Virus record (IMG/VR): IMGVR_UViG_3300033145_001613
Coordinates: 1-32,452 of that record
Strand: one strand, 5' to 3'
Source of the DNA: a virus
DNA: 32,452 bases
Shown: piece after piece, positions 1 through 31,833 of the stretch
How the letters are laid out: each line of letters begins with the position of its first letter
Position numbering within the stretch: the first letter of the stretch is position 1
Translations under genes and position numbers: made by a program
The notes under the pieces: model-generated
Told to the model about the DNA's origin: nothing
Database searches by the model: none
Seen by the model: only the letters and a program-made list of their open reading frames with translations

Positions 1-90
1 ACTACAACCCACAACCTTATCATCAATTTTAATATTTTCTATTGAAACCACACCTCTATCAGTATCGACCGGCGTCCCAGGCAGAAGGCA
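1..90 (-). other. Intein N-terminal splicing domain (block A), truncated by window edge
   Basis: Starting at Cys289 of the glycosyltransferase frame (codon at 90-88), the protein switches to a classic intein block A: CLLPGTPVDT, then G-VVSIENIKIDDKVVG. This matches the family pattern C-L-x-x-x-T-x-V-x-T-x-x-G-x-x-x-I-x-x-I-x-x-G-D-x-V with Cys1 as the splicing nucleophile. D311-D312 stands where G-D is usual. The insertion point is just after SATEGF, inside the most conserved donor-binding motif, which is typical of inteins because conserved sites favour homing. Only 30 intein residues are visible. Any endonuclease domain, the C-terminal HN and the +1 extein residue lie outside. Some GT4 enzymes read EGFC-x-P, so a Cys +1 residue is plausible (inference). 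Confidence 0.82.
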
Positions 91-954
91 AAAGCCCTCT
101 GTGGCACTCATGCTGACAACAGCATCACATGCAGTGTAGAGAGAGCCTATATCTGGAATGAACGTATTTATAACTTCAATTTGCGGCGGGTTTTTCTTTC
201 CTTTTAAGGCAGATTCAATGATCTGTTTTACATCTACTTCAAACGGCTTTCCTTTAGATTCTTTAACAAACTTTGTTTTTAACACCAAGCAAACATCATC
301 GTGTCCTGTAAATGTTTCTACATATCCTTTAATCACTCTTTCATGTAGTTTCCTATGATGGGGTATGGCATTATGTAAAAACTTAACCCTTTTATTTGTT
401 TTTAACTTAAACGGAGGAATATCAGGATTAAACATAGTGGTATCAACACCATGTGGCACGACCAACATTTTATCTTTAGGTATGCCATTATTTGCAAATA
501 TGTCATATGAAAATTGACTTGATGGTAATATATAATTAATTGCCCTTGAATAAATAGGCCACCCAGGAGGTAAAATAGAACTCTCAAAGTTCCATATAGC
601 CGCACGGCGTCTTGATTCTGGATAGAAGCGTCTTGGGAATTGATAAGGTATGGTGTAAGCCAGTTCAAGGTCATAGGGCCTATTTTTATCTTGTATTTCT
701 GGCTCAGGATTTTTTTGCAAAACAATTTTATCGTTCCCTTGACCATCAAGATATTTGGCATCACCAGTAGTCAGAGCGCCGTGATAGCCGGGCAGGAGAA
801 GATGTTTCAGGTCTTCCGGGAAGTGTTCTAAATTATTAGTTGATTTTAGAAAGATTTCATGGCCGCCGATATTTTTCACGGCGCGCGCCAAAAACTGCAT
901 AGTATACGACCAACTGTGAGATGTTCCCAACATGCTGTGTATCCTAATCTTCAT
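1..954 (-). CDS. GT4-type glycosyltransferase, intein-interrupted, 3' end outside window
   Basis: Open frame of 318 codons from ATG at 954 to the window edge with no stop. AAGGAG lies 7 nt upstream of the ATG, and the ATG overlaps the stop of the upstream endonuclease gene (ATGA). The protein resembles a GT-B fold, GT4-like glycosyltransferase: an N-terminal MKIRIHSML strand, then VVPHGVDTTMFNP at the start of the donor-binding half (about residue 180), then DAVVSMSATEGF at 277-288. In the family this last motif belongs to the E-x7-E donor-sugar site, normally followed by x-x-P-x-x-E. Here F288 is followed instead by an intein N-terminus (separate entry). The likely role is transfer of a sugar from a nucleotide sugar to a phage or host acceptor; the acceptor cannot be told. 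The glycosyltransferase call is fairly sure, the specificity is not. Confidence 0.8.
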   Translation of the reverse strand, partial: MKIRIHSMLGTSHSWSYTMQFLARAVKNIGGHEIFLKSTNNLEHFPEDLKHLLLPGYHGALTTGDAKYLDGQGNDKIVLQKNPEPEIQDKNRPYDLELAYTIPYQFPRRFYPESRRRAAIWNFESSILPPGWPIYSRAINYILPSSQFSYDIFANNGIPKDKMLVVPHGVDTTMFNPDIPPFKLKTNKRVKFLHNAIPHHRKLHERVIKGYVETFTGHDDVCLVLKTKFVKESKGKPFEVDVKQIIESALKGKKNPPQIEVINTFIPDIGSLYTACDAVVSMSATEGFCLLPGTPVDTDRGVVSIENIKIDDKVVGCS

Positions 955-1861: not shown

Positions 1862-1911
1862 TACCTTCCTTTTAACTATAACCGTACCTTCCTTTTAACT
1901 ATAACCGTACC
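1862..1911. repeat. 23-bp tandem duplication at the RHH/endonuclease junction
   Basis: Two perfect adjacent copies of a 23-bp unit (1862-1884 and 1885-1907) plus 4 bases of a third. On the minus strand the unit contains GGTACGGTTATAG and AAAAGGAA, the latter being the ribosome binding site of the endonuclease gene. With only one copy, the RHH frame would end ...KRKV and its TAA would overlap the endonuclease ATG (TAATG). The duplication moves the RHH stop upstream into the repeat (TAG at 1876) and separates the two genes. Confidence 0.95.
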
Positions 1912-2097
1912 ATCCTCGCTTCTAATAAGAGCTTGCTTATGCTCTTTATACAAAGTGGCGATCATTTCACGCACAACAGCCGTAACAGTTTTGTAATTAC
2001 CTTTTGAATACATGACGAGAAACTCGTAAAGTTCCTGCTCCAGGCGGATATTTATTTGCTTGCGTAAACTATTGATTTTATTGAGTTTTTCATCCAT
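1876..2097 (-). CDS. Small ribbon-helix-helix-like DNA-binding protein
   Basis: 73 residues from ATG at 2097, which has AAGGAGAA 5 nt upstream. A longer in-frame reading back to a GTG at 2292 exists but lacks a Shine-Dalgarno sequence and is in frame only because of a 23-bp duplication. After a charged N-terminus comes a short beta-like stretch (KQINIRLEQ), then helix (ELYEFLVMYSKG), turn (NYKTV) and helix (TAVVREMIATLYKEHK), the layout of Arc/MetJ/CopG ribbon-helix-helix proteins. Such proteins bind operators as dimers. The target is unknown; it could regulate its own small cluster. The last residues VRL are templated by the duplicated repeat. The family call rests on pattern only. Confidence 0.6.
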   Translation of the reverse strand: MDEKLNKINSLRKQINIRLEQELYEFLVMYSKGNYKTVTAVVREMIATLYKEHKQALIRSEDGTVIVKRKVRL

Positions 2098-2144
2098 TAT
2101 TATTCTCCTTGAATCCCCATTATTATTCTCCTTGAATCCCCATT
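2094..2144. repeat. 23-bp tandem duplication covering the RHH ribosome binding site
   Basis: Two perfect adjacent copies of a 23-bp unit (2094-2116 and 2117-2139) plus 5 further matching bases. On the minus strand each copy holds ATGGGGATTC followed by AAGGAGAATAATA, that is, a start codon and a strong Shine-Dalgarno sequence. The real RHH ATG follows the second copy. The extra copy adds a decoy six-codon ORF (MGIQGE, stop TAA) just upstream. Collapsing to one copy would make an upstream frame end with TGA overlapping the RHH ATG (ATGGATGA). Confidence 0.95.
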
Positions 2145-2307
2145 TGTTTTCTACTTTTATATCCATTATTTTACCTGTTGCGGCAAAGGTTGATGTTGGT
2201 GGACCTCTACCACCACCAGTTGCCCAATACTGTAGATGGATCCCCTCTCCAGTTGCACCGGATATCTTTTTATTAGTAGATTTGAGGCACACAACTGCTA
2301 TATTTTT
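2098..2307 (-). other. Intergenic leader between the tail operon terminator and the RHH gene
   Basis: About 210 bases with no well-supported gene. A minus-strand frame without a Shine-Dalgarno sequence is open from GTG at 2292 and is glycine/threonine-rich (GATGEGIHLQ, TGGGRGPPTS). It fuses in frame to the RHH protein because of the duplicated 23-bp unit. A promoter for the downstream cluster is expected here because a terminator lies just upstream, but I find no convincing -35/-10 pair or phage late motif. It may be an RNA leader, a decayed gene end or a small virion ORF. Confidence 0.35.
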
Positions 2308-2360: not shown

Positions 2361-5225
2361 TTAAATATTTAGTAGTGTTCTCATCTGAGCCATAGTGATC
2401 GACCCAGTTGTGTTTGCGAACCCTGCTTTTTTCAAGTACACAGAAACCAATATCTTTGTGCTGAGGGCTGGCCTTGTTTCATAGCCATCGTCCAACAGAT
2501 TACTTAGGTGTAGTGTCATTAGTGATGTGCTAGGATCATAATACATTCCCACTACATCTTCAATTGGCGTAGAAGTAAAATTACTTGCAGTGGACTGAAT
2601 AGAGGGAGCAATTTTAACTCTACCAACAGAAAAATCACTTGACTGGACATATGTTCCATCTGCAAACTTCATAGCATTAAAACCTGAAGAGGTCAAGCCT
2701 GAGTCAGATTCTGCTACAAAATTGTCAAACAAGAGCAACCCTGTATAACCATCTAAAAGTGTTGGGTCACCGTTCGAGTCTGTCACTGGAATATCCAAAG
2801 ATAGGTGGTTCATCTCAAAATCAACAGAATAATGTGTTCCATCTGGATTCAATTGTATTTCACCTATAACCAAATTTCCAGGAACATAAAAATTGTTTTT
2901 TCCGCCATCACAGGATGCTATATCGTCTGTAAAAGTAGTAGGCATTTCTCGCCTGGTATCAATTATTGATATATTATCTGGAAGCCATGTGGCAAAATAT
3001 TCTATTCTCCATGTTAAAGACACAAAAGGCACAGTATCATACTGCACGCAAGATGCGGGAATATCTACAGCTGTTAGAAGTGGATCGACCAAGTTTTCTA
3101 CCAATACCTGTAATCTTGGAAAATAAGATCCTGTTACAAAAGAAGTGATTGACCTGTCGACAAAATTTTGTATGAGTTGAGAGTCATCTGCTCCTACATA
3201 TCCATCATCATTAACATCTGCTCTTAAAAGAGATAGGGCATTAAGCTCACCGTCGCGAACTTGAGCTTGGAAATAGCCATCACTCAGACTTATTTTTTGG
3301 AAACCAACTGGCAATGTAGTTAAATAAGCATTGTATTTAACAAGCCAACCATCAATGGTGGCGTAGTCAGCCGCAGTAATTGTGCCGTCACCCGTAACAT
3401 CGCCATACGCATCGCTAAGCGATGTGGCTTGTATTATTCTATATTCAGATGTACAACTTACATTGTCTGGTCTAATCACAGATCCTAGTAAACCATTATT
3501 TAGAAGGTCAGCATCTGGGTGTAAAAAATTCAGTTCATTTTGGTCGACGAGACCTATTGTATCTACAGCTCCAGTAATCTGAGTAGGATTTCCTCGCGGA
3601 TTTTGATCCCGCGCACATGCCAACATAATTGGAGACGATTCTGTAGTTAGTAAAGTTGTTAGTTGAGCATCGCTTAATAACGTAAATAAAGGACTCGCTA
3701 GGACTCTAGAAAACACCTGATTTCCAGTTCTTTGATCCTGTACCGGATCAGAAAAAGAATCCTGTCGTTCTACTATAACATTATTATAGGCATCTTTAGT
3801 AGAAGTATAAAATGAGTGATATCCGCTAACATATGGAACTTCTGTATTCGTCGAATCTACAGCAAGTTTAGGAACTTCTATTCCTATACCATCATCATAA
3901 GCTACGCCATCGGCCATTTTGACATAATCCCCATATACAGCAAACCACATATCACTCTCAGTAACATTAATCCACTGGGTTCCATCAAAAATAATCATAT
4001 ATCCATTGTCTGCTTGCTGTGGAGACTCTGTAAAGACAATAGTTCCAACTGTAGTGTCACCTGACCTATGGATGGCCAAGGCATAATACCGACCGGACGT
4101 CACCGATGTTCTTGTGGGATCAGATATTGGAGATCCTGTAAAAACAAAATCTACGGACTGATAGGCATCATAGCCGTCTGACAACACAACGCCCTGTTTT
4201 TCCAAATCATCTATATCTAAGGAAAGCTGAGCTATAATAGTGGGATCTGGGTCAAAATCTACAGCAGTATCTGGAACTGGGCTCACAGGACATGCTACTT
4301 CGGTTTGTAAAGCATAGAGCGTTATAGTCACAGAGCCAGACCAACCATAAGCATCGGCGGCAGGAACTGTTTTATCTTCCTTTACTGCCATTAGGACAGA
4401 CACTTTTTGTATATTTGATCCATTGGCAAGGAACTTTTGACCAACTATAGTGCTTACATCGTTTGGCTCAATAAGTCGTGCAGACGATGCTACAAAACCG
4501 ATGTTCAAATCTGACACAGGTTTATCACTGCCAATGCCATTTTGTAACATACTACTGATTGAATCGCTTGCGTTGCCAGGCACAAAATCTCCAAAAAATT
4601 GAGTAGGTTGAGACATCTGAGATGCTATAATTACGTCTCTAGAAACTTCCATAGATTTGGCTTCTCTAACCATCATGCTACCAATTAACGCTCCGTAAGC
4701 ATCCCCACCAACTCTAGCTGGAGAAAGACTACCATATAAATTGCCTGCGAAGTTATGTGTAATAACAGACCGCAGTGTTTTATATCTACCTCTTGTTATC
4801 TGAGTGCCATTGGTTTGAAATACTAAATCATCATGAATTAAATCGCCACCAAACTCATCACCTATAATGGAGACCTTTGTTTCAATAGCCCCATCTAGGT
4901 CAACGCTAGCTAAAGTAACAGATATTTGTACGCCTTCAGCTTCATCTGAAACAGACGACAAAGGAGTACCCACATATAGATCTTGTCCATCAAACGCATA
5001 GGCGTCAAATATGGCTTGCTGTTGCGTGTTTAGACTATTTGTATTGATGAGCACTGTGTCTGATAGAGTATGGTTTAATACTCCACTGCCCATAAAATTG
5101 TTTACAGTAGCGGCGTCTATATCTACGTTTCTGGTTTGTTCGTCATCCATATCACTTTCGGTGACCTGTTGCCCGTCATGCCAGTTAACCTTTTTAACAC
5201 CTACATCTAGGCGTTTAGTTGTCAT
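2361..5225 (-). CDS. Fibre-like/baseplate-associated virion protein with dockerin-like module
   Basis: 954 residues; ATG at 5225 preceded by AGGAGGAG. The N-terminus (VNWHDGQQVTESDMDDEQ) resembles the start of baseplate-attached fibre proteins that carry an F-x-D-G-Q-x-x-T-x-x-D-x-x-x-x-Q signature. The body is beta-rich. Residues about 605-690 carry two F-hand calcium loops: D609-V-T-G-D-G-T-I-T-A-A-D620 and D670-V-N-D-D-G-Y-V-G-A-D-D681. Both have acidic or polar residues at positions 1, 3, 5 and 12, as in type I dockerins. DGY or DAY occurs about ten times. It is the last gene before a terminator and follows the wedge genes, where fibres and adsorption proteins normally sit. Likely an outer baseplate or fibre component; receptor and partner are unknown. 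Confidence 0.72.
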   Translation of the reverse strand: MTTKRLDVGVKKVNWHDGQQVTESDMDDEQTRNVDIDAATVNNFMGSGVLNHTLSDTVLINTNSLNTQQQAIFDAYAFDGQDLYVGTPLSSVSDEAEGVQISVTLASVDLDGAIETKVSIIGDEFGGDLIHDDLVFQTNGTQITRGRYKTLRSVITHNFAGNLYGSLSPARVGGDAYGALIGSMMVREAKSMEVSRDVIIASQMSQPTQFFGDFVPGNASDSISSMLQNGIGSDKPVSDLNIGFVASSARLIEPNDVSTIVGQKFLANGSNIQKVSVLMAVKEDKTVPAADAYGWSGSVTITLYALQTEVACPVSPVPDTAVDFDPDPTIIAQLSLDIDDLEKQGVVLSDGYDAYQSVDFVFTGSPISDPTRTSVTSGRYYALAIHRSGDTTVGTIVFTESPQQADNGYMIIFDGTQWINVTESDMWFAVYGDYVKMADGVAYDDGIGIEVPKLAVDSTNTEVPYVSGYHSFYTSTKDAYNNVIVERQDSFSDPVQDQRTGNQVFSRVLASPLFTLLSDAQLTTLLTTESSPIMLACARDQNPRGNPTQITGAVDTIGLVDQNELNFLHPDADLLNNGLLGSVIRPDNVSCTSEYRIIQATSLSDAYGDVTGDGTITAADYATIDGWLVKYNAYLTTLPVGFQKISLSDGYFQAQVRDGELNALSLLRADVNDDGYVGADDSQLIQNFVDRSITSFVTGSYFPRLQVLVENLVDPLLTAVDIPASCVQYDTVPFVSLTWRIEYFATWLPDNISIIDTRREMPTTFTDDIASCDGGKNNFYVPGNLVIGEIQLNPDGTHYSVDFEMNHLSLDIPVTDSNGDPTLLDGYTGLLLFDNFVAESDSGLTSSGFNAMKFADGTYVQSSDFSVGRVKIAPSIQSTASNFTSTPIEDVVGMYYDPSTSLMTLHLSNLLDDGYETRPALSTKILVSVYLKKAGFANTTGSITMAQMRTLLNI

Positions 5226-5238
5226 TAGAAAACTCCTC

Positions 5239-8200
5239 CTATTTCGTAAAGCTCACAAAGGCTCTAGTGTGAGCCGGCTTAATTCTGTTAATTAGCGCTG
5301 TTATTAAATCATGCGCCAGTGTCGTATCTACTAAGCTAAAGGTATCAATTACTTCCACAAAGAAGTCAAAGATTCCTGTTGCCGCATTTCTAACAGTTAT
5401 TAGATTAGTTACATCTTCCTGTGTTGTATTGAAATCCAAAAGCAATCTTGTAAAAGCGTCACTTACCACTGGCTGGGCTGTATTAGTGTTTCTTGTGAAC
5501 AGAAGATCTCTACCAATAAGCCTACCAGGTCCCTCTCCGCCAAGATATGTTATAGAGCGTAGGGCACTGGAAAATCTCATATTATCGATTCTGGCAAGTG
5601 AAGTGAACTGTCCTGTAAAATCAGCACCGACGTTTACCGTGTTAAATACGTCTAGCAAATTTATGTCCGATAGTATGTTTCTAGCGGATGTCGTTCCGGC
5701 AATTCCAGAACCCCACACTGTACTTTGGCCATAACGTACGCCAGTACCATATTTGAGCCCAGTGCCATATCGAATGGTGCCAGTTTCTATACCATCAACC
5801 ATCATAATAAGTCTATCCTGATTGTCTGTATTATTTAAATCCCATCCCACGAAAACTCTATGCCATGTGTTTTTCTTCCAGAAAACTGAAGAACTAATCT
5901 GATAATCAACTTCAGACGCCGTTACAGACAAAACAATGGCACCCACTTCGTTCTTTAATATGCTGAATCTATCACCAGAACTAGTTATTGGAACATATGT
6001 AACGGTAACCGTTCTTGTAACACCAGGAAGAGGTTGCCCTAACGTAACAGTCAGCCCATCATCTGATAAAGAACCGCCAGTAAAGTAGTTTATTTCACTG
6101 TTTGCTACAATAACTTCACTGACAGATCTTGCTCGAACGGTAAGTGGAACAGTAATAGAAGTTGCCGCAGTCACGTCAGTCTGTTGGTTTGGCGTTAAAT
6201 CCACATAATATCGTGCGGTTGGATCATTCCATGTATCCAATATGGGGCTTACCCAAAACTCAATAGTCCCCGCACTATTATTAAAAATTGATTGATTATC
6301 GAACTGTAATGGCGTTTGTTGGATAAACACACCAGACTGATTAAAGTTAGAGTTGACGCTGTTCTCACTCTGTTTATATGATCCTGAGAAACTAGATAGA
6401 AAATCAGCACTATTAACCACATCATCATTAAAGTGGAATAGCCCAAGTGTCTGGTCCGTTTTCTCAAATTCACTTACTACCAATGAATCTGTGGTTATAG
6501 ATCTACCTGAACTAGGAGCTTCTTCTCCAGGCCCAGTATCAACAGACAGTTCGTCCAATATACGCATCTCATCTATAACAGCATTTGCTTGGTTGTTCCC
6601 ATTCATGTCAGAACCTATATAAACTGTTTCTGGGGTTTTATCCCAAGGAACAGTAAGAAATGCTGAATGATCTACTTCATACCAACAACTTCTCAATAGA
6701 AATGGCTTTCCACCACTTCTCATGATCTCAAATGTTAGTAAGCCGTTGGCGAATCCACTATCTCCGTATGACGTATTCAGCAGCCTCCAGGTAATGTCCG
6801 CATACCCGTCAGCCCAGGTTGTATTGAGAACAACTGTATCGGAATCTTTAACGGTGCTAGAAGGGTCTAGTGGAACATTCAATACAGTATAAATACCTGC
6901 GATACTTGCGGGAGAATCTATGTTAAAAGTTTTACCAATATCTTCTTGCCCGAATCTAGAGTAAGTATCAGATAATGTTGATGTTCCTATAGAGGCAACG
7001 CCACTGACACCACTTTGCTCTTGTACCGACAGATGTATTTCTGCATAGTCACCACTGTTCTCCTGCCAATTTATTGGGATAGCCTCTCGAACCGAAAGGC
7101 TACCAGCATTTAGTGAAGAGTTAATTGGAGTTACTGAAGCAACCACATCAGTTAAAGAAGTAAAAAATCTAGTAGTGGTTTGCGTGCCAACCTGAGAAAA
7201 ACTTATTGTTTCTGTATCATAGCCGTCCGTGGTATCTCCCACAAAAATAACTTGACATGCTCCACCAAAATCTATGTTGTCTCCAGATAGAGTAGCCGAT
7301 AGTCTTTTCCCAGTAACGGTATTCGAAGGTTGACAGAAATCTAAGCTGGCAGTTAATGAGGAAATTATATGTCCACCAACCACTGTTGCGATAAGAACAA
7401 ATGCCCCAGAATCTACAATAATTCTTTTTACAATAAGATTAGTGACATTTATTTTAGAAACTGCTGTTGGTGTTGGAGTTATAGTGTTAAGAAGATTTAC
7501 AAGTTGGTCTGGCCATACATAAGCCTCTTGTATACATCGTTCAACATTAAGGCCATATGTTTTCAGAAGAGCACTAGACCCAACGCCTAAACCGTTGAAT
7601 ATGTTAATAATATCATCATATCCATCTTCTGTGGCGATATAATCTGGTGTTAAAGTACTTGGAGAAAATAGTTCCGTTTCAACACCATAAGAATCAAGTT
7701 CAAATACCCTCACTCTTTCTATTTCCGGGTCGCTAGCTGTTTCAAGTTCCAAAGGATTTATAGAGAAGCTAACATCAGATAAGGTGGATACAGCAATGAA
7801 TGGCACAGCAGACCCGACGGGACCAACTTCTAAAGTCAAAGTATTTTGTCCAGTAACTGCTAATACGTACACATATGGATCAATCCCGGTTGTCAATCCA
7901 TCAGCCGTGCCATCTCTTATTAAGAATCTACTTCCAACAGCTACATTGCTCGCAATAAAGTTCGAACCAACAGATGATACAATATTTGAGCCTGCTGTGG
8001 TTCTTAAATCGAACCCACCAATAGTAGGCCAAGCCACAGTGGCTATGAGCACTTCAGATGCCTCATCCATGTATAATGGACCATCAGGAGCATTCAAATA
8101 GCCTTTAAACCTATAAGTGTTTGGTACTTCCGCACCATCAACAAAAAGATGTAGCTCATCCTGTTGTTCCACCGTTCCCATTTTCCATGAGGCCGCGATG

Positions 8201-11200
8201 TGATGTGTGGAGTTAAAATCCCAATCATCAATGTTGTAACTCAACATTTTTATACGATTATTTCCATCATAAACTCGATACCTTAAAAAACTCTTTCCAT
8301 CTTTATATAGAGACATTCTACAATCATTGGCTGCCGCACCTGTGTCAAAGAAATAATGTATATTGTCCGATAGAAAATCTATTCCATCGAAGCCTGCGTA
8401 AGCTCCATTATATGCGTCATAAGCATCATAGGCCATGTTTAGAGAATCATAGGCATCTACGACAAAAGCGAACCTTATCATCTCATCTGTCGATCTCAAA
8501 AGATCATTGATTTCGTTGATGTTAGCAGAGCCATCATAGCCGTCATAGCCATCAGCGGTGCTAGCTATTTTGACATCGCTAAATTGTCCAGTAGTTGTGA
8601 TTTGTCCCGTAAACACTCTCTCTTCAGCAATGGGTGCCCTGCTTCGCATTCTCCATTTATTTGAAGATGTATCAAACCAAATGAAATATCCTGTTTCAGA
8701 GTGTAGGTTGCTTGGCCTTCCCAATACTTCTGGACTACTACTATCTAAAGAAAATGGTATCTCGTCTGGGCTATAGGCAGAGGATCCTATGAAAACCTTA
8801 TCTGGATTGCTGGCCCCGTCAAAAAGCAAATTGAAAGTTAGCGTGGCATCATTTTCTATGCCCTTCCATTGAGGAGTAACAAACGCTTCCCAAGTCCCCT
8901 CGTTGAAGCTAATGTTGGAATTGGCCGGTATAACAGCAGTTTGTGATTCTGTATCAAGCAGAAGACCATTATCAAATTTTCCAGGGGCAAATCCTGGGAG
9001 ATTGGCCTGGCTATCCGCATTTAAATCCATCTCAAGCAAATAAGAAGAGTCGCGCCCTAGAATCCACTCCAGGAAAGCTGTCTCTGTAATGTTAGGTGTT
9101 ATTTGGGTAAACGCCTCAACCAGTTTTTCAATGGATGGAATAGTCGGACCTTTCAAAAATGACTGTAAAGACCCATCAACAGCATTTCGATATGTCTCAC
9201 GATCTAGTTCATCCGGAATAGTAGAAAGCTCTTCAAGACTGGTAAGAATACCAAAATTATCCACTAGGGCAGATCTAAGTGCCCCATACCTATATGTTAC
9301 AAAGTAATCTGTTCCTTCAGCAACAGAATCTGATATGCTCCAATCCAGAACGTTATCTCCATATTCATAACTAACAAGAAGTTCATCCGTAGTATATGTA
9401 TAGTCTGCAAACATATCGCCAACAACGTAATCTACCAACACTGTAGCACCACTTCTAAGAGACGCATTATATTGTGCCGCAACACTTCTTCCAGCTAGCC
9501 CCAGCCCTGTGGGCAAGAATATGCGATTATTTATCACATCCACATAACCATCTGTTCCTTGAGTGTAATAATTTGTGTTTCCGTTCAGAGGATGTATGCT
9601 GATAGCTGACTCCAACATAACAAGCCCAGCGGTATGGAGAGCCGAGATTCTTTGGGCATCTACATATTCTCTAGACCCAGCAGTTTTCACCAAAAGGCCC
9701 GCACCACCATAGTTATCATTAATTTCCACACCATCCGAATCCAATGTTATTACAGTTGGTGCAGATATTGTAGTTGTAGCACCCACAGAAAAATCAATTG
9801 GATCATAGGTGACTTGTAGATCTGTAACCTGATATAAACGATTCAAGCGGAAAATATCTCCACTTACAGTCACTGTTGATGTGGCCGATACTGTAATTAT
9901 AGAGCCACTCACAGTGCGTTCTCCAACTTCAGACAAATCGATTACATCAACCGTGGTATCAGAAACTGTGCCAACAGTTAAAGTTTCTGTATTATCAGCA
10001 GTAACAGAAGCACTTCTATATACATCGTCAACTCGTATAATATGCCCATTACGGCTTTTAATTTTTCCTCTACGATAGGAGGCGTCCCCAATATCAGTGC
10101 TGATTCCAGAAGTTACGGCTATATAGGCAATACCACTTGTATAGTTGACCATATAATCACCAACCAACAAAAGACGTGCCAGGTTATCATCGACAGTGTC
10201 GTCGGAATCGTAAAAGAACTCTCTAACAAATACAGTTGAGTCAGAGAACATTAAAGAGCTGTTAAAGCTAGCTCCTACAAAACTGCCAACAGCTGACATT
10301 ATATCAGTATCTGAAAGGAGAATTCTAAATACATCAAATGACTTTCCACTTATAGACAAAGTGTCCGTAATGGCCAACTGCGATTGAATCACTTGGTCAA
10401 ACTCCGCAGCTTCTCTGGAAACATCTACAGTATTAGGAGGATTATTGGAAGAAAAGAACACTTCTTTTCCGCTAATCCTAGTTGGTGTATAAATCTCACC
10501 TGTGGTCTCATTGAAAATTCTAAAGACCTCATTAACTGGGCCATAAGAAGTTGTGAGACCAATTGTATCAATTAGCCTGTTCTCTACTCTTTCATTTATA
10601 ACTTCAATGTGAGAAGCAAAATTGAAATCTTGTCCATTGGCAAAGGTGTCTTCATAATCAAATGCTATGGTTCCTGGACCATCACGTAGCTCTCTTCCTG
10701 GCAATGATGCGATTTCATTTAAATCAGAGAAGAATCTATAGTCCAAGCCTTCCTGAAATACGCGCTTGAATTGGTAGGTGGCTACAGGAGGTATTGTTGT
10801 GGTTCCATCCGTGGCGGTACCATTAACGCCAAACACAATAACTTGTCCTGTGTTGTAGTTAACAGAGTATTGACCCGGAGATTTCGGTAAATTAGACGTA
10901 TTATACACAATCTCTGTTGTAAACGCCGGATGATCCTGATTGGAGTCAAAGTTTGTAGCAGGGTCAAGCCATGTAACACCACCAGTGGATGGTATATCCC
11001 CACTGGAATCTATGATTGGGGCGTTTCCCAGCGTAAAGGATACAGCAACAGAAGGAACACTTTCTCTTGTTACACCCACTGGAGTAGATACTTCGACAGA
11101 ACTTTCGTCTATGACTCTGCCCACCTTTTTGTAATAGTAGGTTATAGTTATAACATCACTCCCTTGCGGAAAGGGAAATGATGAGCCTACAGCTGTATTG

Positions 11201-12090
11201 CTCAGTCTTATTTGGTCTTCATTAAGGTCTAGTGCCGGATAAGAATTATCAGAATCATACTTGCTCTCCAGTATCCCATACTTGTAGACTTCTATGTCAT
11301 ATGTATACTCTACAGAATCTCTAGTTAAAGTGATATTTGTCACCTGAATCACAGGACTTTGGGCAAGTGTAATATCCAACCCAATAAAACTGTTGGCCTC
11401 ATTTGCGGTATTGGAAACTGTTTCTCCAGTAACCAATATTCTTTGTAAGCTGACAGGGTCGCTAGGGAACTCGGTGAAAGATATTGTGTCACTAGTGGTA
11501 GCTCCTGTAATAGCAGAACCTACTCTTAATATCTGATAAACTCCCTCATTGGAGAATCTATCAAATGGGCCACTCCCTCTTGTAACTATTTCATCTGTAA
11601 CATCTATTGCTACATAGTTAGCACTACGAACTTCTCCGCTAGAATGAGCAGATTTTAGAATTTCTTCAGCTCCAGCATCTATGGTATCAAAAACTAGGCT
11701 ACCTGTCTCTACATTATAAACCCCGCTATCCAAATCTGCAATAATCTCGTCGCGCACAATATTCTCTTCTTGCTGTCCGACAAAGAATACCACATTAGTT
11801 GTACCATCCTCCAGGAAAGGCTGACCAATAGCACCCTGTACTGTTTGGGTGGTAGTGGAAGCTACAGTCAATTTATAGTGTGCTCTGGGAACCATAGGAC
11901 GTATGGTTATTTGCAGTATGTTAGAATCTACAACGACAGACAATATGGTCAGATCACTAACACCACCTGCGGCACCTACTATTGTTATGTTTTCAATTCC
12001 TATGCTAGTGTTTAACGTATGCGTAAAAGAAAGCTCTAGAAGGCTGCTGCTTGTAACTGCCAATCTAACGATGCGTAAGTTGTTGGTCAT
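5239..12090 (-). CDS. Giant baseplate wedge/tail protein with LamG-like domains and gpI-like C-terminus
   Basis: 2283 residues; the ATG overlaps the stop of the J-like gene (TAATG) behind GAGGAG. The N-terminal 1000 residues are beta-rich with no clear family. Concanavalin/LamG-like folds are suggested at about 1040-1355 (GTWEAFVTPQ, HIAASWK, LHLFVDGAEVP), about 1780-1865 (VYIGSDMNG, VIDEMRILDE) and about 1880-2190 (LGLFHFNDD, GTIEFWVSP, WHRVFVGWD, LIMMVDGIETG, ARIDNMRFSSA). About 2102-2130 is a short RYGTG/KYGTG/RYGQS repeat. The end, LINRIKPAHTRAFVSF, resembles the tail of phage tail protein I. Position after gp25- and J-like genes corresponds to T4 gp7 or P2 gpI, but it is far larger (T4 gp7 is 1032 residues). 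LamG folds often bind glycans, so host-surface contact is possible (inference). Confidence 0.75.
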   Translation of the reverse strand: MTNNLRIVRLAVTSSSLLELSFTHTLNTSIGIENITIVGAAGGVSDLTILSVVVDSNILQITIRPMVPRAHYKLTVASTTTQTVQGAIGQPFLEDGTTNVVFFVGQQEENIVRDEIIADLDSGVYNVETGSLVFDTIDAGAEEILKSAHSSGEVRSANYVAIDVTDEIVTRGSGPFDRFSNEGVYQILRVGSAITGATTSDTISFTEFPSDPVSLQRILVTGETVSNTANEANSFIGLDITLAQSPVIQVTNITLTRDSVEYTYDIEVYKYGILESKYDSDNSYPALDLNEDQIRLSNTAVGSSFPFPQGSDVITITYYYKKVGRVIDESSVEVSTPVGVTRESVPSVAVSFTLGNAPIIDSSGDIPSTGGVTWLDPATNFDSNQDHPAFTTEIVYNTSNLPKSPGQYSVNYNTGQVIVFGVNGTATDGTTTIPPVATYQFKRVFQEGLDYRFFSDLNEIASLPGRELRDGPGTIAFDYEDTFANGQDFNFASHIEVINERVENRLIDTIGLTTSYGPVNEVFRIFNETTGEIYTPTRISGKEVFFSSNNPPNTVDVSREAAEFDQVIQSQLAITDTLSISGKSFDVFRILLSDTDIMSAVGSFVGASFNSSLMFSDSTVFVREFFYDSDDTVDDNLARLLLVGDYMVNYTSGIAYIAVTSGISTDIGDASYRRGKIKSRNGHIIRVDDVYRSASVTADNTETLTVGTVSDTTVDVIDLSEVGERTVSGSIITVSATSTVTVSGDIFRLNRLYQVTDLQVTYDPIDFSVGATTTISAPTVITLDSDGVEINDNYGGAGLLVKTAGSREYVDAQRISALHTAGLVMLESAISIHPLNGNTNYYTQGTDGYVDVINNRIFLPTGLGLAGRSVAAQYNASLRSGATVLVDYVVGDMFADYTYTTDELLVSYEYGDNVLDWSISDSVAEGTDYFVTYRYGALRSALVDNFGILTSLEELSTIPDELDRETYRNAVDGSLQSFLKGPTIPSIEKLVEAFTQITPNITETAFLEWILGRDSSYLLEMDLNADSQANLPGFAPGKFDNGLLLDTESQTAVIPANSNISFNEGTWEAFVTPQWKGIENDATLTFNLLFDGASNPDKVFIGSSAYSPDEIPFSLDSSSPEVLGRPSNLHSETGYFIWFDTSSNKWRMRSRAPIAEERVFTGQITTTGQFSDVKIASTADGYDGYDGSANINEINDLLRSTDEMIRFAFVVDAYDSLNMAYDAYDAYNGAYAGFDGIDFLSDNIHYFFDTGAAANDCRMSLYKDGKSFLRYRVYDGNNRIKMLSYNIDDWDFNSTHHIAASWKMGTVEQQDELHLFVDGAEVPNTYRFKGYLNAPDGPLYMDEASEVLIATVAWPTIGGFDLRTTAGSNIVSSVGSNFIASNVAVGSRFLIRDGTADGLTTGIDPYVYVLAVTGQNTLTLEVGPVGSAVPFIAVSTLSDVSFSINPLELETASDPEIERVRVFELDSYGVETELFSPSTLTPDYIATEDGYDDIINIFNGLGVGSSALLKTYGLNVERCIQEAYVWPDQLVNLLNTITPTPTAVSKINVTNLIVKRIIVDSGAFVLIATVVGGHIISSLTASLDFCQPSNTVTGKRLSATLSGDNIDFGGACQVIFVGDTTDGYDTETISFSQVGTQTTTRFFTSLTDVVASVTPINSSLNAGSLSVREAIPINWQENSGDYAEIHLSVQEQSGVSGVASIGTSTLSDTYSRFGQEDIGKTFNIDSPASIAGIYTVLNVPLDPSSTVKDSDTVVLNTTWADGYADITWRLLNTSYGDSGFANGLLTFEIMRSGGKPFLLRSCWYEVDHSAFLTVPWDKTPETVYIGSDMNGNNQANAVIDEMRILDELSVDTGPGEEAPSSGRSITTDSLVVSEFEKTDQTLGLFHFNDDVVNSADFLSSFSGSYKQSENSVNSNFNQSGVFIQQTPLQFDNQSIFNNSAGTIEFWVSPILDTWNDPTARYYVDLTPNQQTDVTAATSITVPLTVRARSVSEVIVANSEINYFTGGSLSDDGLTVTLGQPLPGVTRTVTVTYVPITSSGDRFSILKNEVGAIVLSVTASEVDYQISSSVFWKKNTWHRVFVGWDLNNTDNQDRLIMMVDGIETGTIRYGTGLKYGTGVRYGQSTVWGSGIAGTTSARNILSDINLLDVFNTVNVGADFTGQFTSLARIDNMRFSSALRSITYLGGEGPGRLIGRDLLFTRNTNTAQPVVSDAFTRLLLDFNTTQEDVTNLITVRNAATGIFDFFVEVIDTFSLVDTTLAHDLITALINRIKPAHTRAFVSFTK

Positions 12091-15000
12091 TAGCGCTCCT
12101 CTACCTCAACAGTAACTGTTCCAGGCGCGAGATACTCGTTTTTTTGTGCCACTATACTCAACACTGTACCCGAAGCTCCAGTTTTATTAAATGTAATTAT
12201 TCTTATCCTATCTAAACCAGCGACATTATATGTGTTGGCCTTAACGTCAGATGAATCCAAGGTAGTTGCTAAAGCAGTTGCGCTGAGACTTGCGCTGATG
12301 TTATCAGCTACATCCTGCCTAACGGTTGTTCGTTTGTCACTAAAATCTGGAAGTACTATGATTTTTACTGACACATCGATCTCTATCTTCGTGCCTGATT
12401 TTGTTAAAACGTCCGCTGTTATGGGACGACTATCTTCAACAGCTTGGGCGGAATCAACTATTAGCTTGTTAAATTCCGTATTTATAGTGATTCTCTCATT
12501 TTCTTTTGGAGAAGTATAATTATAATCAGCAAGATAGGTTGTATTAGGTGTAGGCTGGTTAAACGAATCTATTAAGAATCTGCCTGAAGTTGTTCCACTT
12601 GAGTCTTGGAACCCTGACAGTCTATTAATTGAAGATATCATACCAAATCTCTTGTCACTTATACCAGTTCCATTACGAGAGAAGAAGAGGTTCTCAACAT
12701 CATTTTCCTTGGCGTAATAGAATGTTGCTCGCAAAACAGTTCCTGTAATAATAGGACTAGTGGTGTTTGCGCTAACAGCAGAAAGGCTAACCACAGTTTT
12801 TGCCAAAGATGTTTGTTGAAGGGCATTTGCTTTATCCCATTTCGCATCTCGAACGGCATAGTTGGTTAAATCATATGTTGTAACGACAGATGCGACCTCT
12901 CCAGCAACTGTTAATGTTACAGCCTCCAAGGAAACCATCCTAGCAACTGAAATAGCCGTAGATATAGTGGCGCTACTCGCAAGACCCTCCGCCTTTCTTA
13001 TAGGTACGGATAAGTCAAATGTTGGAGATGTTGATGTAAACACATCGGTTACCTTGTTTATTGTAGTCCCAACAATCTTCAAGGTGCCCTGTGCTGGGAT
13101 ATTAGACGCCGTTACACTTAAGTTACTAGGCGATCTTCTTTGATTTGTAACCACGTCTGAGCCAGCATATGTATTCTGGACGGGTTGATAACCATCAATA
13201 TCCAAAAAGGAGTTGAGGCCGTCAGTAGAAACGGGCAGCACAGAAATGTTTGTGCTAGGGATCAAGTTCAAGAAATCAGCAACATAGTTAGCATATACAG
13301 CTGTTCCAGTTGATATAGCCGTAGACGGATTCAATGTAATTACATTATTAAGAGTTGTGGCCGCGTCATAACCGTCAACTTCTGAAACATCTCCAAGATT
13401 GTAAACAACAGTTACAGAATCTCCTTGCTGAGCCAAAGTATCTGTTGGAAGAGTAATGAGTACATTGGAGAAGGTACCATCGTCAGCTTTAGTGTTATAG
13501 AGTTCTGGGTTACCACTAATACTCGTATCCGTGATACTATGGATATTTGTAATGACCTGTGATACCTGTATGGTAGCCTGAGAACTAACAGCCGTTGTTT
13601 CTGACACAAAAGTATTCACAGATAAGATTCTCGTGATTGGATACTGTGTTGTGACTGTCAAATTATCATAAGCATCCAGTATGGCATTTGACACTTCATC
13701 TCTGATATAGTTTGAAAACCCCCACTCTACTGAATCCTGCGCCGCGTTTAAAGTATCTTTGAGGTCAAAATTGTCGAAGTCTATGTTGCTATCCATTTCA
13801 AATATCCAGGTATAGTCTACTTGTAGTACGTCACTTGCTGTAGGAAGTGTCCTACCACTTATTTTAACTCTTCCTGTTGTGTTGGTTGAGCCGCTATCAT
13901 CAGGAGTCTGGTCAACTATTGTGTATCGTTCCCCAGTTGTCAGATTAAACACTCTGCTCACTGTTTTTACAGGAACATGATTAACAGTAACATAGTTTCT
14001 ACTGGCAGTAGAAACACTAGAGTTTTCATTTGTGATCTGCGTCTCCTGCCTGATTGCTGGAATTTCCAGTACATCCGTGAATGACAAGCCATCTATGCTG
14101 TTGTGCGAGCCCTTAGCAACAGATTCATTAATAAGGTCTATTCTGTCAGATGTCCAAACAAACTTATCCAAGCCAAAGGGGCTGCCGCCAGCTGAGCCAG
14201 TGTCTTTCACAAGGGCATAATTTCCCTGTAAGTTGCCGGCAGAATCAGTATATTGCTCAACAAAATTTGGTCCAGAGGAACTACCATTCACAGATACTAT
14301 ATTTGATACTGGTTGATTTGGAATGTCTGCTCCCTCAGAGAAAGTAGCCACTCTTCTTGAATTCAAGGTAAGTGTGTCATCAGCAGTCAAACTGCTCTGA
14401 CCCAACACAAAATCGTTGTTTGAGTGTGTTGGGTCTCCAGCACCGCTTAAATCATTAAACACAAAGCTGTCAGTGCCAGCCTGCAGATTTTCTCCCATAA
14501 CATATATGTCTACTCTGCCACCAGTTCCCGGCTCAGATACAATCTGGTTGCCGTAAGCATCTATAACCGTTACTGTGCCATCGCGAATCATTAGAGGGTC
14601 GCCGGGCTCAACTACTAGAGCATCAATGGATGCAGAAAGATTTAGAATTATACTCCTATATCCAACAGCTGTACCTACATTAGTGCCAGCGAATGTGGCC
14701 AATATGCGGGATCTAAGCGCTGCGTCACTCTCCAGGTCTGTGCCAGCCGTAAAAGAGGACAGGTTTGTGACATTGGTTGCCTCAGCAAGATTAGATATAA
14801 TTATTGAGTAGGCCGCAATGTTGCCAATAGAACCTTCGCTTTGGGCCTCGACAGAAACTTCTATCGCGAATTCGTCTGTGATACTAGCTACATTAAGCTG
14901 GTCACGAAGTCTAGTAGCCGTAGCACGCAGAGAGTTAGCCTGCGCTGTGGTGATATTAACCGTAGAAATCGTTATAAACGGCAGCCCATTCCTGGTCCTA

Positions 15001-15326
15001 GCTGTCGTGCCGGCAGGAATGGTTATGTCAGTGTCTATATCCTTGAAGGTAAAAACCACCGTTCCAATGGATTTCGTTCCACTTTGTCTAGTCACACCAT
15101 AATTGGAAGCATAGTTTGTAAGCTCCAAACCAGTTATGTTGGAGATTGACTGTAAAGCAGAAATTTCTCTAAGCGCCTCATATATGCTGGACATCTGTTG
15201 TGCCTGTAAGTCGATCATCAAATCCCTAGCCACTGTTGCCGGTTTTGTGTCCAGACTGGGCTGAGTAAGCCTAAGCTGTTCTATCATATCTAGGACAATA
15301 TTGTTAAAGCTTTTAGAAGTTACCAT
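12090..15326 (-). CDS. Baseplate wedge protein, gp6/J-like (enlarged)
   Basis: 1078 residues; ATG at 15326 directly follows the gp25-like stop (TAAATG) behind GAGG. The Baseplate_J pattern is clear: TVVFTFKDIDTDITIPAGTTART (about 88-110), a beta domain ending EGSIGNIAAYS, then SFTAGTDLESDAALRSRILA (about 190-210) and the following helix. The C-terminal part (ITADVLTKSGTKIEIDVSVK, near 970, then a helix rich in NISASLSATA) is the usual gp6/J end that dimerises around the hub. T4 gp6 has 660 residues and P2 gpJ about 300. The extra length is a beta-rich block of roughly 600 residues between the two conserved ends. It contains four DGY/DAY motifs. Role: forms the inner wedge ring with gp25- and gp7-like partners. 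Confidence 0.88.
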   Translation of the reverse strand: MVTSKSFNNIVLDMIEQLRLTQPSLDTKPATVARDLMIDLQAQQMSSIYEALREISALQSISNITGLELTNYASNYGVTRQSGTKSIGTVVFTFKDIDTDITIPAGTTARTRNGLPFITISTVNITTAQANSLRATATRLRDQLNVASITDEFAIEVSVEAQSEGSIGNIAAYSIIISNLAEATNVTNLSSFTAGTDLESDAALRSRILATFAGTNVGTAVGYRSIILNLSASIDALVVEPGDPLMIRDGTVTVIDAYGNQIVSEPGTGGRVDIYVMGENLQAGTDSFVFNDLSGAGDPTHSNNDFVLGQSSLTADDTLTLNSRRVATFSEGADIPNQPVSNIVSVNGSSSGPNFVEQYTDSAGNLQGNYALVKDTGSAGGSPFGLDKFVWTSDRIDLINESVAKGSHNSIDGLSFTDVLEIPAIRQETQITNENSSVSTASRNYVTVNHVPVKTVSRVFNLTTGERYTIVDQTPDDSGSTNTTGRVKISGRTLPTASDVLQVDYTWIFEMDSNIDFDNFDLKDTLNAAQDSVEWGFSNYIRDEVSNAILDAYDNLTVTTQYPITRILSVNTFVSETTAVSSQATIQVSQVITNIHSITDTSISGNPELYNTKADDGTFSNVLITLPTDTLAQQGDSVTVVYNLGDVSEVDGYDAATTLNNVITLNPSTAISTGTAVYANYVADFLNLIPSTNISVLPVSTDGLNSFLDIDGYQPVQNTYAGSDVVTNQRRSPSNLSVTASNIPAQGTLKIVGTTINKVTDVFTSTSPTFDLSVPIRKAEGLASSATISTAISVARMVSLEAVTLTVAGEVASVVTTYDLTNYAVRDAKWDKANALQQTSLAKTVVSLSAVSANTTSPIITGTVLRATFYYAKENDVENLFFSRNGTGISDKRFGMISSINRLSGFQDSSGTTSGRFLIDSFNQPTPNTTYLADYNYTSPKENERITINTEFNKLIVDSAQAVEDSRPITADVLTKSGTKIEIDVSVKIIVLPDFSDKRTTVRQDVADNISASLSATALATTLDSSDVKANTYNVAGLDRIRIITFNKTGASGTVLSIVAQKNEYLAPGTVTVEVEER

Positions 15327-17391: not shown

Positions 17392-19404
17392 TCACTCCGC
17401 TCTCACTGAACCAAGTGGCTCAGTTACTCCGCCACCCTCTACTACAGGTCTGCGTGGTACGAATTCTACTTCAATTTCTCTTTTAATAAGATCACTTCCA
17501 TTAAAGTCTGCTACATCTTCTCCACCAACAACAGCGCTAAGCTTAGCAATTGTGGGGACATTACTTGTAAGTGTAGCTATAAAATTTCCTGTCGAGTCTC
17601 CACCATCATCAAACACTTCTGTAGTATTGGAGATATCACCAGCATCCGTTTCTATTGTTGCCTCAATCACGCCAGGAGGTAAAGTTTGCCCCAGAGGCTG
17701 CCCACTTAAATCTATAGGTGTTAAAGTAACTATAATATCTTCTCCAACCACCTGAACTAATGGATCAGCAGAGAGTAGTGAATTTTCTGGGCTGAATAGA
17801 ACAGGATATATATCTTCAGCATAATCTATTAGTTCACCCTCAAACGTAGTAAGCGTGGCCGTTAAGCAGGAAGACAGCCCCGCTGCTCCTGTAGCTATAC
17901 TTGTAAGATTGTTAAGCACATATTCTGTATCAACTGTTATAGGGGCAACTGCGGCCAAACATGCGGTGACATCAACTAGTAGCTTATCAAAATCTGGCAA
18001 GGCCGGCAGAGTTAGATTGGCAGCAAAAGGAAACCTGTTTGCTAGGCCAGCAGCAGCAGCCTTAATTGCCGGATGACAACCAACGCCTATTAAACCATGC
18101 CTGATAAGTTCGTTATGATTAATGTCGAGCTGAAAACTTTTCCCTGACCCAGCAGACGGTATTGCAGGAGTAACTTTCCAATCCATATGTACTGATGGAG
18201 CAGCACCCGAGTTGAAACTCCATGTGCCCGATTCTCTCTGCAGCTTTACGTTATAACCATCGTACACTTGCTTTATCAGCCAGGTACCATTATTGGTTGC
18301 GGCGAAAGCACTACTGTTTCTTTCGATGATCTCTACATATCTTGTGTTTACAAAGCTCGGCAAGAATGTCTCTGTATTTGTACCAAACCTTACATCAAGA
18401 GCACTAATTAACGGTGCGCCACTCACTATGTCAGATAAATAGCCGTCTGCCAAAAATGGCTCAGGTATAACCGAAATAGCTGCGGCACCCTCAGAATTAA
18501 CACCCTGTACAGCATATACTATATCATCTATTTCTATAGTATATGCCAGGTCATCTTCATCCGTTATTGTGCTATAGTTTATGCCCTTTGGGAAAAAATC
18601 TCTTATTTGTAGTAAACTACTTTTTTGAGACTCCGAATAAAAACGCAACTGAAACTCTGAGCTACTAGAACCATAAAGCACATATAGAATACCATCGGAT
18701 CCAACTATGCTGGACTGCTGTATGGTAGATGGACACTGGTCTTCGCCGCAACCAGAGCAGGAGCCACCAGTGCCGCTACATGGGATGGCAATTCCAGCAT
18801 CTAATAAAGCCTTAATCATGACAAAGAGAGCACTCAAGACAGCTAGAACGCCAACTACGCTATAAAGCTCTTTAATCAGAGAGGTTATCTTGAAAGAGAT
18901 AGCTGAAATGGCCTGTAGGTTCCCATCGGCTACAGCATCAATCAGGTTCGTTATGTTTTGAATTAGGTCCTGAATTAAAGGCAAAATCACAGTAAGAATA
19001 TACTCTACAATTGCTATGACAACTTTAATTATACAGATTATCTTGGCCGGTATTGCCAACTGCGGTAGGATTAAAATAAAATCTGGAAGGCATGTTCCAA
19101 ACAATCTAATCATAGCGTCTATTAACGCAAATGGATTATTTATGGCACACAATACCTCCATTATACAGGTTATCATCTGCATAACAACTGCCACAACACC
19201 ATACGCCGAGGCCAACGCACTTAGAACTCTCGAATGGTCAGCTATAATATCACCTATATTTACTGTTGCGCTGGGCAGCGAAGAGGGTCTGATTTGAGCC
19301 CCAGCTGTACAAGTACACTTAAGCTTATCTAAAAGCTGTGGGTACGTTAAGGGTTGCTCTCCTGTAGATGGTGGTAAAACTAGCACTGGATTAGGTGCTG
19401 CCAT
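17392..19404 (-). CDS. Hydrophobic, cysteine-rich baseplate-module protein with Ig-like C-terminus
   Basis: 670 residues, not recognised as a family. ATG at 19404 behind AAGGAGAG; the upstream gene's TAA overlaps this site. No signal peptide is obvious, but there are three strongly hydrophobic blocks: about 68-88 (VVAVVMQMITCIMEVLC), 106-146 (LPDFILILPQLAIP then KIICIIKVVIAIVEYILTVI) and 182-207 (VVGVLAVLSALFVMIKALL). Then come four cysteines at 209, 216, 219 and 224 (C-x6-C-x2-C-x4-C) in a Gly/Ser-rich linker. Residues about 560-640 look like an Ig-like domain of Big-1 type (VTLTPIDLSGQPLGQTLPPG, then a G-x-F-x-A-x-L-T-S strand). Located directly after the spike gene. It could be a membrane-inserting component of genome delivery, but that is inference; a buried structural core is equally possible. 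Confidence 0.7.
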   Translation of the reverse strand: MAAPNPVLVLPPSTGEQPLTYPQLLDKLKCTCTAGAQIRPSSLPSATVNIGDIIADHSRVLSALASAYGVVAVVMQMITCIMEVLCAINNPFALIDAMIRLFGTCLPDFILILPQLAIPAKIICIIKVVIAIVEYILTVILPLIQDLIQNITNLIDAVADGNLQAISAISFKITSLIKELYSVVGVLAVLSALFVMIKALLDAGIAIPCSGTGGSCSGCGEDQCPSTIQQSSIVGSDGILYVLYGSSSSEFQLRFYSESQKSSLLQIRDFFPKGINYSTITDEDDLAYTIEIDDIVYAVQGVNSEGAAAISVIPEPFLADGYLSDIVSGAPLISALDVRFGTNTETFLPSFVNTRYVEIIERNSSAFAATNNGTWLIKQVYDGYNVKLQRESGTWSFNSGAAPSVHMDWKVTPAIPSAGSGKSFQLDINHNELIRHGLIGVGCHPAIKAAAAGLANRFPFAANLTLPALPDFDKLLVDVTACLAAVAPITVDTEYVLNNLTSIATGAAGLSSCLTATLTTFEGELIDYAEDIYPVLFSPENSLLSADPLVQVVGEDIIVTLTPIDLSGQPLGQTLPPGVIEATIETDAGDISNTTEVFDDGGDSTGNFIATLTSNVPTIAKLSAVVGGEDVADFNGSDLIKREIEVEFVPRRPVVEGGGVTEPLGSVRAE

Positions 19405-30385: not shown

Positions 30386-31021
30386 TTACTCTTCTGCGGC
30401 TGCGGTGATGATACCAGCAACATCCATTGTACCTCTGAATCCGCCGCCATTATTGCTTCCGCCAGCGCCAGAGTCAGTCTGTTGCTCTCTACCAAGATTA
30501 TCCTTGACAAAAGCAATGCCGCGAGCACCACCTGTAACAGCGCTTGCCTGAGAAGTTCCAAGATTTGTGCTAATATCTTCGATCCATATAGTTGCCTCTT
30601 CCTGGATGATGAAGTTATCAGACTGATATCTTGGGCTATACCTATTGAACCAGCAGTTTGTAAGTTTATGAACTACTGCTCCTTCTCCATCTCCATTTGT
30701 ACGGTCTATAATCAGAATGTCAAATGGAAGCAGCTGTGATTTAATATTGATAAATGCGCGAGCAAAAGCCTGAGTCATGCTAAGCCTATCAAATACAATA
30801 CGAGTAATTGTAGCCTCGTATTGCGTTGGAGCCCTTGGCACGATCTCCAATACTCCATCAAGGCCAACTTCCTTGACTCTTTCTAAATCTCTGGTCTGAT
30901 TGACCGTAATATTTTGAATCGCACCAACAGTCTCATTGTCCACCTTTACCAATATTTGTGTCGATAAGCCGGTCGATATAGTACTATTTAGTGTTGATCC
31001 AGTGATTGGATAGGAACTCAT
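30386..31021 (-). CDS. Tail tube protein, paralogue 2
   Basis: 211 residues; ATG at 31021 behind CGGAGG. The sequence has tail-tube character: a beta strand with STQILVKVDNETVGAIQNITV, then a loop EVGLDGVLEIVPRAPTQYEATITRIVFD, a helix (SMTQAFARAFIN), and FDILIIDRT with NCWFNRYSPRYQSDNFIIQEEATI. In T4 gp19-type tubes a similar order of beta hairpin, helix and beta sheet builds the hexameric ring. It aligns end to end with the product of 31844-32452 apart from a different Gly-rich tail (GAGGSNNGGG). Followed by a terminator, as expected for an abundant virion protein. Tube versus tube-like cap or initiator cannot be decided. Confidence 0.8.
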   Translation of the reverse strand: MSSYPITGSTLNSTISTGLSTQILVKVDNETVGAIQNITVNQTRDLERVKEVGLDGVLEIVPRAPTQYEATITRIVFDRLSMTQAFARAFINIKSQLLPFDILIIDRTNGDGEGAVVHKLTNCWFNRYSPRYQSDNFIIQEEATIWIEDISTNLGTSQASAVTGGARGIAFVKDNLGREQQTDSGAGGSNNGGGFRGTMDVAGIITAAAEE

Positions 31022-31062: not shown

Positions 31063-31833
31063 TTATTTTTTCCTAGTTAAAAAGTTTTGGGCACAATCTT
31101 TATATAACCAATCCCTTATTTTAGGAACTTGCTTGTTTCCACTAAATGAAAGTGAAAAAGCCGCAGTATCTTTTCGTTGTAGAATATTTGGATTTCCAAT
31201 ATCAAGTGCTGACTTCATTTCACTTTTAATCCACTCTAAAAAGATTTTAGAGCCAGAAATCACAGTGAATCTTAAACTAAACCCATTACAATCCAAGCAC
31301 CCATCACCATCGAAATATCCTCTTATATAATGATGTGTTAATTCATCCGGCACATTATATGGCGGCTTCAAAATCAAAGATTTGCGTGGAACTATATTGA
31401 AATTGTTTTCCAAATCTCTAATCATTATTTTGGATCTTATACCCATTTGGCAATACTTTCTGATCTTTCCAAACATGTTTCTTTCTCTATACCATAATTT
31501 AGGCTCACGGTCTATAAAGTTACAAAGTTTTTTAAGATGCTCATCATCTTTAATTGACAGTTCCACACCTATAAGACCATTACTTATCCAACCATCGGCT
31601 GCTATAAATCCAGCCCAATAACAACTTTCTTTTGTGAATTTAGCAAATGACAAGTCATTAAAATTATATTTCCTTTCATAAGCGTTTGGTCGCATGGCGA
31701 CTTTATTTTCTCGCAACCTTTTTAAAATAGTAGGTTTTGATACACCAAACTTTCCTGCTATTTGTATGCTTGTTAGGCCACTTTTGTATAATTTTACTAT
31801 TCGTGCTGAATCAACATTTATTCTTGCTGGCAT
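31063..31833 (-). CDS. LAGLIDADG homing endonuclease with N-terminal HTH
   Basis: 256 residues; ATG at 31833 behind AGGAAAT, 10 bases after the upstream tube-like stop. Residues about 8-42 form a helix-turn-helix of resolvase/Hin type (IVKLYKSGLTSIQIAGKFGVS then KPTILKRLREN). LAGLIDADG motifs are WAGFIAADG (73-81) and IRGYFDGDG (170-178), each with the metal-binding acidic residue, spaced as in a two-motif enzyme. It lies precisely between two homologous tube-type genes without disrupting either. Expected role: cut an uninvaded tail tube locus and spread by repair. Different subfamily from the endonuclease at 951-1859 by motif context. Confidence 0.88.
   Translation of the reverse strand: MPARINVDSARIVKLYKSGLTSIQIAGKFGVSKPTILKRLRENKVAMRPNAYERKYNFNDLSFAKFTKESCYWAGFIAADGWISNGLIGVELSIKDDEHLKKLCNFIDREPKLWYRERNMFGKIRKYCQMGIRSKIMIRDLENNFNIVPRKSLILKPPYNVPDELTHHYIRGYFDGDGCLDCNGFSLRFTVISGSKIFLEWIKSEMKSALDIGNPNILQRKDTAAFSLSFSGNKQVPKIRDWLYKDCAQNFLTRKK

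Follow-up and report, generated by a model that had tools for sequence, protein, structure and literature searches.

The window, by which we mean the whole stretch of DNA that we analysed, is a record of 32,452 bases in total, and a glycosyltransferase gene runs off its base 1 on the minus strand. A single frame of 318 codons starts from the ATG at 954..952 and continues to base 1, which is the end of the contig. Across the junction described below, this frame reads SATEGF/CLLPGTPVDT (the slash marks the bond at which the intein is inserted), and residue 289 (codon 90..88) begins CLLPGTPVDTDRGVVSIENIKIDDKVVGCS. For comparison, we used ten homologues of the window's glycosyltransferase from scans of IMG/VR; their contigs carry labels such as L001. 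The features at this end of the window are:

91..954, minus strand: N-extein, made up of the first 288 residues of a GT4-type glycosyltransferase, the last of which (MSATEGF) reach into the E-x7-E motif
88..93, minus strand: N-terminal splice junction, F288/Cys1; L002 is uninterrupted here (EGF-CLPLLE), and L001 and L020 have inteins at exactly that bond
1..90, minus strand: first 30 residues of the intein, with block A (Cys1 is codon 90..88), up to where the contig stops; identified by a match to Hint_2 and by a junction like those of L001 and L020
951..1859, minus strand: free-standing LAGLIDADG_2 homing endonuclease gene, 302 residues, with helix-turn-helix segments at both ends (PF03161, E 1e-20)
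1876..2292, minus strand: open reading frame ending in KQINIRLEQELYEFLV..., which on side-by-side reading resembles an 83-residue open reading frame that directly precedes the glycosyltransferase in L001

The interrupted glycosyltransferase

Residues 1-288 of the window's frame match the PHROG family phrog_2170, "glycosyltransferase" (E 1.6e-13), and share 64-75% identity with six phage homologues. In relatives where it is full-length, the protein has about 745-758 residues and two glycosyltransferase domains, the first of which is the one that houses the intein. Glycos_transf_1 scores above its cut-off in the whole proteins from L002 and L016, and the PDB sequence matches of the L002 protein are sucrose-phosphate-synthase-like and group 1 transferases. 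We also compared a structural model of the first domain from L002 with Foldseek, which returned the GT4 enzymes MshA, PglA, PimA and GlgM with a probability of 1.00; the confidence of this model is moderate overall (mean pLDDT 54) and is highest in stretches that lie within residues 181-280. Together, the sequence and fold comparisons point to an extein of the GT4 type with a predicted GT-B fold. The Phe-Cys bond lies in E-G-F-C-L-P-L-L-E, which we take to be the E-x7-E donor-site signature of the GT4 family. All ten relatives keep both glutamates of this motif, and the window itself shows the first glutamate only.

A protein-level comparison of the window's glycosyltransferase with 50,697 phage records gave no match, and among 84,980 cellular genomes the only match was weak, covered 38 residues and lay in an ordinary glycosyltransferase of a cyanobacterium. 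Because relatives are nearly absent from cellular genomes, the enzyme looks phage-specific.

After Phe288 the frame changes character. In the alignment with L002, the window's protein is 75% identical through Phe288 and diverges right after a shared Cys-Leu. The 30 residues from there to the contig end include an intein block A with Cys1 (CLLPGTPVDT, 90..61). When these residues were scanned alone, the top Pfam profile was Hint_2, ahead of Intein_splicing; the match begins at the model's second position and scores 19.4 bits (E 0.0015), which is below the curated cut-off of 28.4. Their similarity to the N-termini of the two intact inteins at this site, those of L001 and L020, reached scores that only 1 of 5,000 shuffled sequences attained in one comparison and 7 of 5,000 in the other. 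(The best match to the 30 residues was a helicase intein in L003, which we dismissed because its host protein is unrelated.) A scan of the whole window with Intein_splicing gave no match, as expected with 30 residues of intein. No exact match to the DNA of the intein's start was found among viral contigs, and a search with the C-terminal half of the glycosyltransferase recovered relatives but nothing from the part of this genome that lies beyond the contig end.

Occupied and empty sites in related phages

In two of the ten relatives, the same bond is occupied by a complete intein:

L001:5877-7187: complete intein of 437 amino acids, between SSCEGF and CLPLLEAMACEKLVIAPRHGG, on a 49 kb contig
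L020:3747-5000: complete intein of 418 amino acids, between SSTEGF and CLPLLEALACKSLVIAPRHGG, on a 33 kb contig

The layout is SSCEGF/CLLPDIEVDT...TPEH...LAGLIDADG...GGMATHN/CLPLLEAMA in L001 and SSTEGF/CLIPDTLIDV...TKEH...LAGLIDADG...GIIVHN/CLPLLEALA in L020. Both inteins thus start with CL[LI]P, carry a block B TxxH (TPEH and TKEH) and end in HN, after which the GT4 sequence resumes at CLPLLEA. Block-F-like stretches (GKVYNLHIDEDHSF in L001 and GRVHNLEVENDHSY in L020) are also present, and LAGLIDADG_3 scores above the Pfam cut-off inside both. The L020 intein clears the Pfam cut-offs for Intein_splicing (43.2 vs. 35.8) and LAGLIDADG_3 (43.3 vs. 22.5) as well as that of NCBIfam intein_Cterm (29.6 vs. 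15.6). (An AlphaFold model of this intein had a pLDDT of 39.7 and was set aside.) The two inteins are homologous: aligned along their full length, they are 30% identical (E 1e-66). Because the junction is identical in L001 and L020, the case for an intein in the window, which the 30 residues by themselves would only suggest, is secure: by sequence comparison, the interruption of the frame at F288/Cys1 by an intein is confirmed. We infer that the window's intein is complete past the contig end and that it splices and homes.

The intein is absent from eight of the homologues. In L002 (a record of 301 kb) the protein has no insert and is continuous at the site, SATEGFCLPLLEA. The intein-free alleles of L002 (EGFCLPLLEA) and L005 (EGYCLPLLEA; 340 kb) and the occupied alleles of the window, L001 and L020 differ in frame and at the identical bond. 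Furthermore, L002 is the window's closest relative (their sister relationship has support of 99/99), so in the single clade that is well supported the presence of the intein is discordant with the tree. The residue that follows the bond in the extein (+1) is Cys in four of the ten relatives (L001, L020, L002 and L005); it is Trp in L016, L018, L030 and L031, His in L029 and Tyr in L032. The Trp, His and Tyr alleles lack the +1 nucleophile, and therefore only the Cys alleles would be open to this intein. These six might be resistant alleles. The sporadic presence of the intein fits a homing parasite, as does the endonuclease domain that both intact relatives carry, and the sequences indicate that a canonical class-1 homing intein occupies this site in some phages and not in others. 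With the site either filled by a complete intein or empty in related phages, the insert has the look of a mobile element, ordinarily selfish, in a kind of host protein for which inteins have rarely been reported.

These comparisons bear out the first-pass annotation, which had read a GT4-like frame as far as SATEGF and then an intein block A, CLLPGTPVDT: the alignment with L002 and the junctions in L001 and L020 agree with it. It had also placed the site inside E-x7-E, and the insertion bond does lie between the motif's two glutamates. The further intein blocks (B, F and G) and the resumed GT4 sequence that it expected downstream are found in L001 and L020 (TxxH, LAGLIDADG, block F, HN/Cys and CLPLLEA). 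Had CLLPGTPVDT been a native segment of such glycosyltransferases, homologues would carry it, and eight of them do not.

Two other features of the relatives' records stood out. The records of L002, L005 and L018, which are large phages (300-340 kb), each contain several further matches to Intein_splicing in long frames. L001:473-2770, within a phage structural region, encodes a 765-residue protein that consists mostly of Cys-rich repeats (CTGxC...).

A free-standing endonuclease beside the glycosyltransferase

The LAGLIDADG_2 gene at 951-1859 is directly upstream of the glycosyltransferase, and its stop overlaps the glycosyltransferase's start as ATGA. Its last codons include AGGAGA, which is a likely ribosome-binding site for the glycosyltransferase. 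A homologous gene occupies the identical place in L002 (62% identity) and in L018 (39%), and it is missing from the glycosyltransferase locus in L001, L005, L016 and L020, so it is sporadic at a fixed locus. In the window, this gene separates the open reading frame at 1876..2292 from the glycosyltransferase. In our scan for related endonucleases, the members with at least 39% identity were all at the glycosyltransferase locus, and the rest (at most 33%) were elsewhere. On these sequence comparisons, a clade of endonucleases appears to be tied to the glycosyltransferase. We considered whether the intein's endonuclease derives from the neighbouring free-standing gene and rejected this, as the free-standing endonucleases of the window and of L002 showed no significant BLAST similarity to the intein of L001 (E 1.2 or worse). 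Upstream in L018 (2267-2825) is a second LAGLIDADG-like gene, apparently split into two overlapping frames, which would make it a decaying homing endonuclease beside an intact one.

Free-standing endonucleases of this kind have a parallel in the Seg and Mob endonucleases of phage T4 (PMC2988022). Like those, the 951-1859 gene stands alone beside a conserved gene, is sporadic among relatives and does not disrupt its neighbour; unlike them, it has a LAGLIDADG_2 product that begins and ends with helix-turn-helix segments, and it has its locus in common with an intein. For group I introns, "collaborative homing" has been proposed (PMC2988022). A version of this at the protein level, in which the free-standing endonuclease cuts intein-free glycosyltransferase genes near the same E-x7-E site and the two elements are driven jointly, strikes us as unlikely. 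If it were true, the window would represent an intermediate stage in which an intein has met a pre-adapted endonuclease, and the window's intein might even be without an endonuclease of its own.

The window contains a second free-standing LAGLIDADG gene at 31063-31833 on the minus strand (LAGLIDADG_3 with a helix-turn-helix N-terminus). It is a gene-flanking homing endonuclease, with a virion-protein gene on either side (30386-31021 and 31844-32452); these two genes are similar to each other. Separately, the proteins of the tail/baseplate region (2361-5225, 5239-12090, 12090-15326 and 17392-19404, minus strand) contain 15 Asp-Gly-Tyr tripeptides, as compared to about 1 predicted by composition. 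The codons for these tripeptides vary, and there are 11 Asp-Ala-Tyr tripeptides besides. Neither tripeptide occurs in the other proteins that we counted; similar Asp-Gly-Tyr tripeptides are visible in L001, L002 and L005.

Proposed mechanism, alternatives and precedents

We consider it very probable, from the sequences, that this phage GT4 gene is interrupted by a class-1 homing intein at the Phe-Cys bond of E-x7-E (EGF/CLPLLE). Class-1 inteins splice by a standard four-step route (PMC4031507). Here, the translated intein would fold, and Cys1, the TxxH of block B, the terminal His-Asn and the extein's Cys+1 would drive its own excision. Splicing would then join EGF to CLPLLE and restore the E-x7-E motif exactly. 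The LAGLIDADG domain that is present in the intact relatives would cut intein-free glycosyltransferase alleles of phages that infect the same cell, and the intein would thereby be copied into them. Inteins favour conserved sites, from which they can be lost by exact deletion only and at which immunity is hard to evolve (PMC2814812). The location in a catalytic motif can thus be explained without regulation, because conserved sites are where homing inteins usually insert (PMC2814812).

Alternatively, the intein might be a regulatory switch that is retained because glycosylation becomes conditional on splicing (through redox state, timing or temperature). Since the donor-site motif is divided by the insertion, the sequences and what is known of GT4 enzymes make it reasonable to expect that the unspliced enzyme would be inactive, and both Cys1 and Cys+1 are in principle redox-sensitive. 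However, eight homologues, including the nearest relative, do without the intein; homing and resistance to deletion already account for the preference for a conserved site (PMC2814812); and both intact relatives have kept the endonuclease domain, as a mobile element would. A switch therefore seems very unlikely. The first-pass annotation's suggestion that sugar transfer is conditional on splicing finds no support, given that homing inteins are usually found in conserved motifs (PMC2814812) and that eight homologues are intein-free.

Two other readings deserve hardly any credence. The insert could be a Hint domain of the bacterial-intein-like (BIL) or hedgehog type, which would cleave without splicing, so that the glycosyltransferase is matured by cleavage. 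The ranking of Hint_2 over Intein_splicing for the window's 30 residues would agree with this, as would a BIL chain among weak PDB matches (E 0.52), but the relatives show HN/C, a C-extein, LAGLIDADG and an exact empty site, which are features of inteins rather than of BIL domains, and we regard a BIL domain as highly implausible. Just as improbable is an assembly artefact that joined the glycosyltransferase gene to an unrelated intein at the contig end. The contig does end 90 bases into the insert, but the reading frame is kept across the join, inteins in two independent contigs occupy exactly this bond, and a polymorphic insert is a simple explanation for a contig being truncated there.

The intein is of a known type. 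It shares Cys1 and insertion in a conserved motif with other class-1 homing inteins of phages, whose hosts include terminase, DNA polymerase, thymidylate synthase and methylase; the intact inteins of L001 and L020 also share TxxH, LAGLIDADG, a terminal HN and Cys+1 with them. The L020 intein matches those of the Lactococcus phage 949 DNA polymerase and the Aeromonas phage PS1 thymidylate synthase, among others, with 22-27% identity along 53-100% of its length. What differs is the extein, which is here a GT4 glycosyltransferase. Chitin synthase is a GT2 enzyme. The inteins of fungal chitin synthases are a precedent for an intein in a sugar-transfer enzyme (PMC5784728); they too have a glycosyltransferase as host, but one of another fold and family, encoded by a eukaryotic nuclear gene. 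In the literature that we searched (open-licence papers, hence weak evidence), we found no intein in a GT4 enzyme or in any phage glycosyltransferase.

In summary, this is a known type of intein in a new host protein of a large uncultured phage, and not a new kind of machine. It extends the hosts of phage inteins, which are mostly nucleic-acid enzymes, to a sugar-transfer enzyme, and the relatives provide a clean series of occupied and empty alleles at the glycosyltransferase site. Within about 0.9 kb, the locus combines a site for inteins with a free-standing endonuclease from the same broad family of motifs, and it thus offers a place to test for inteins the assembly that has been proposed for composite homing elements.
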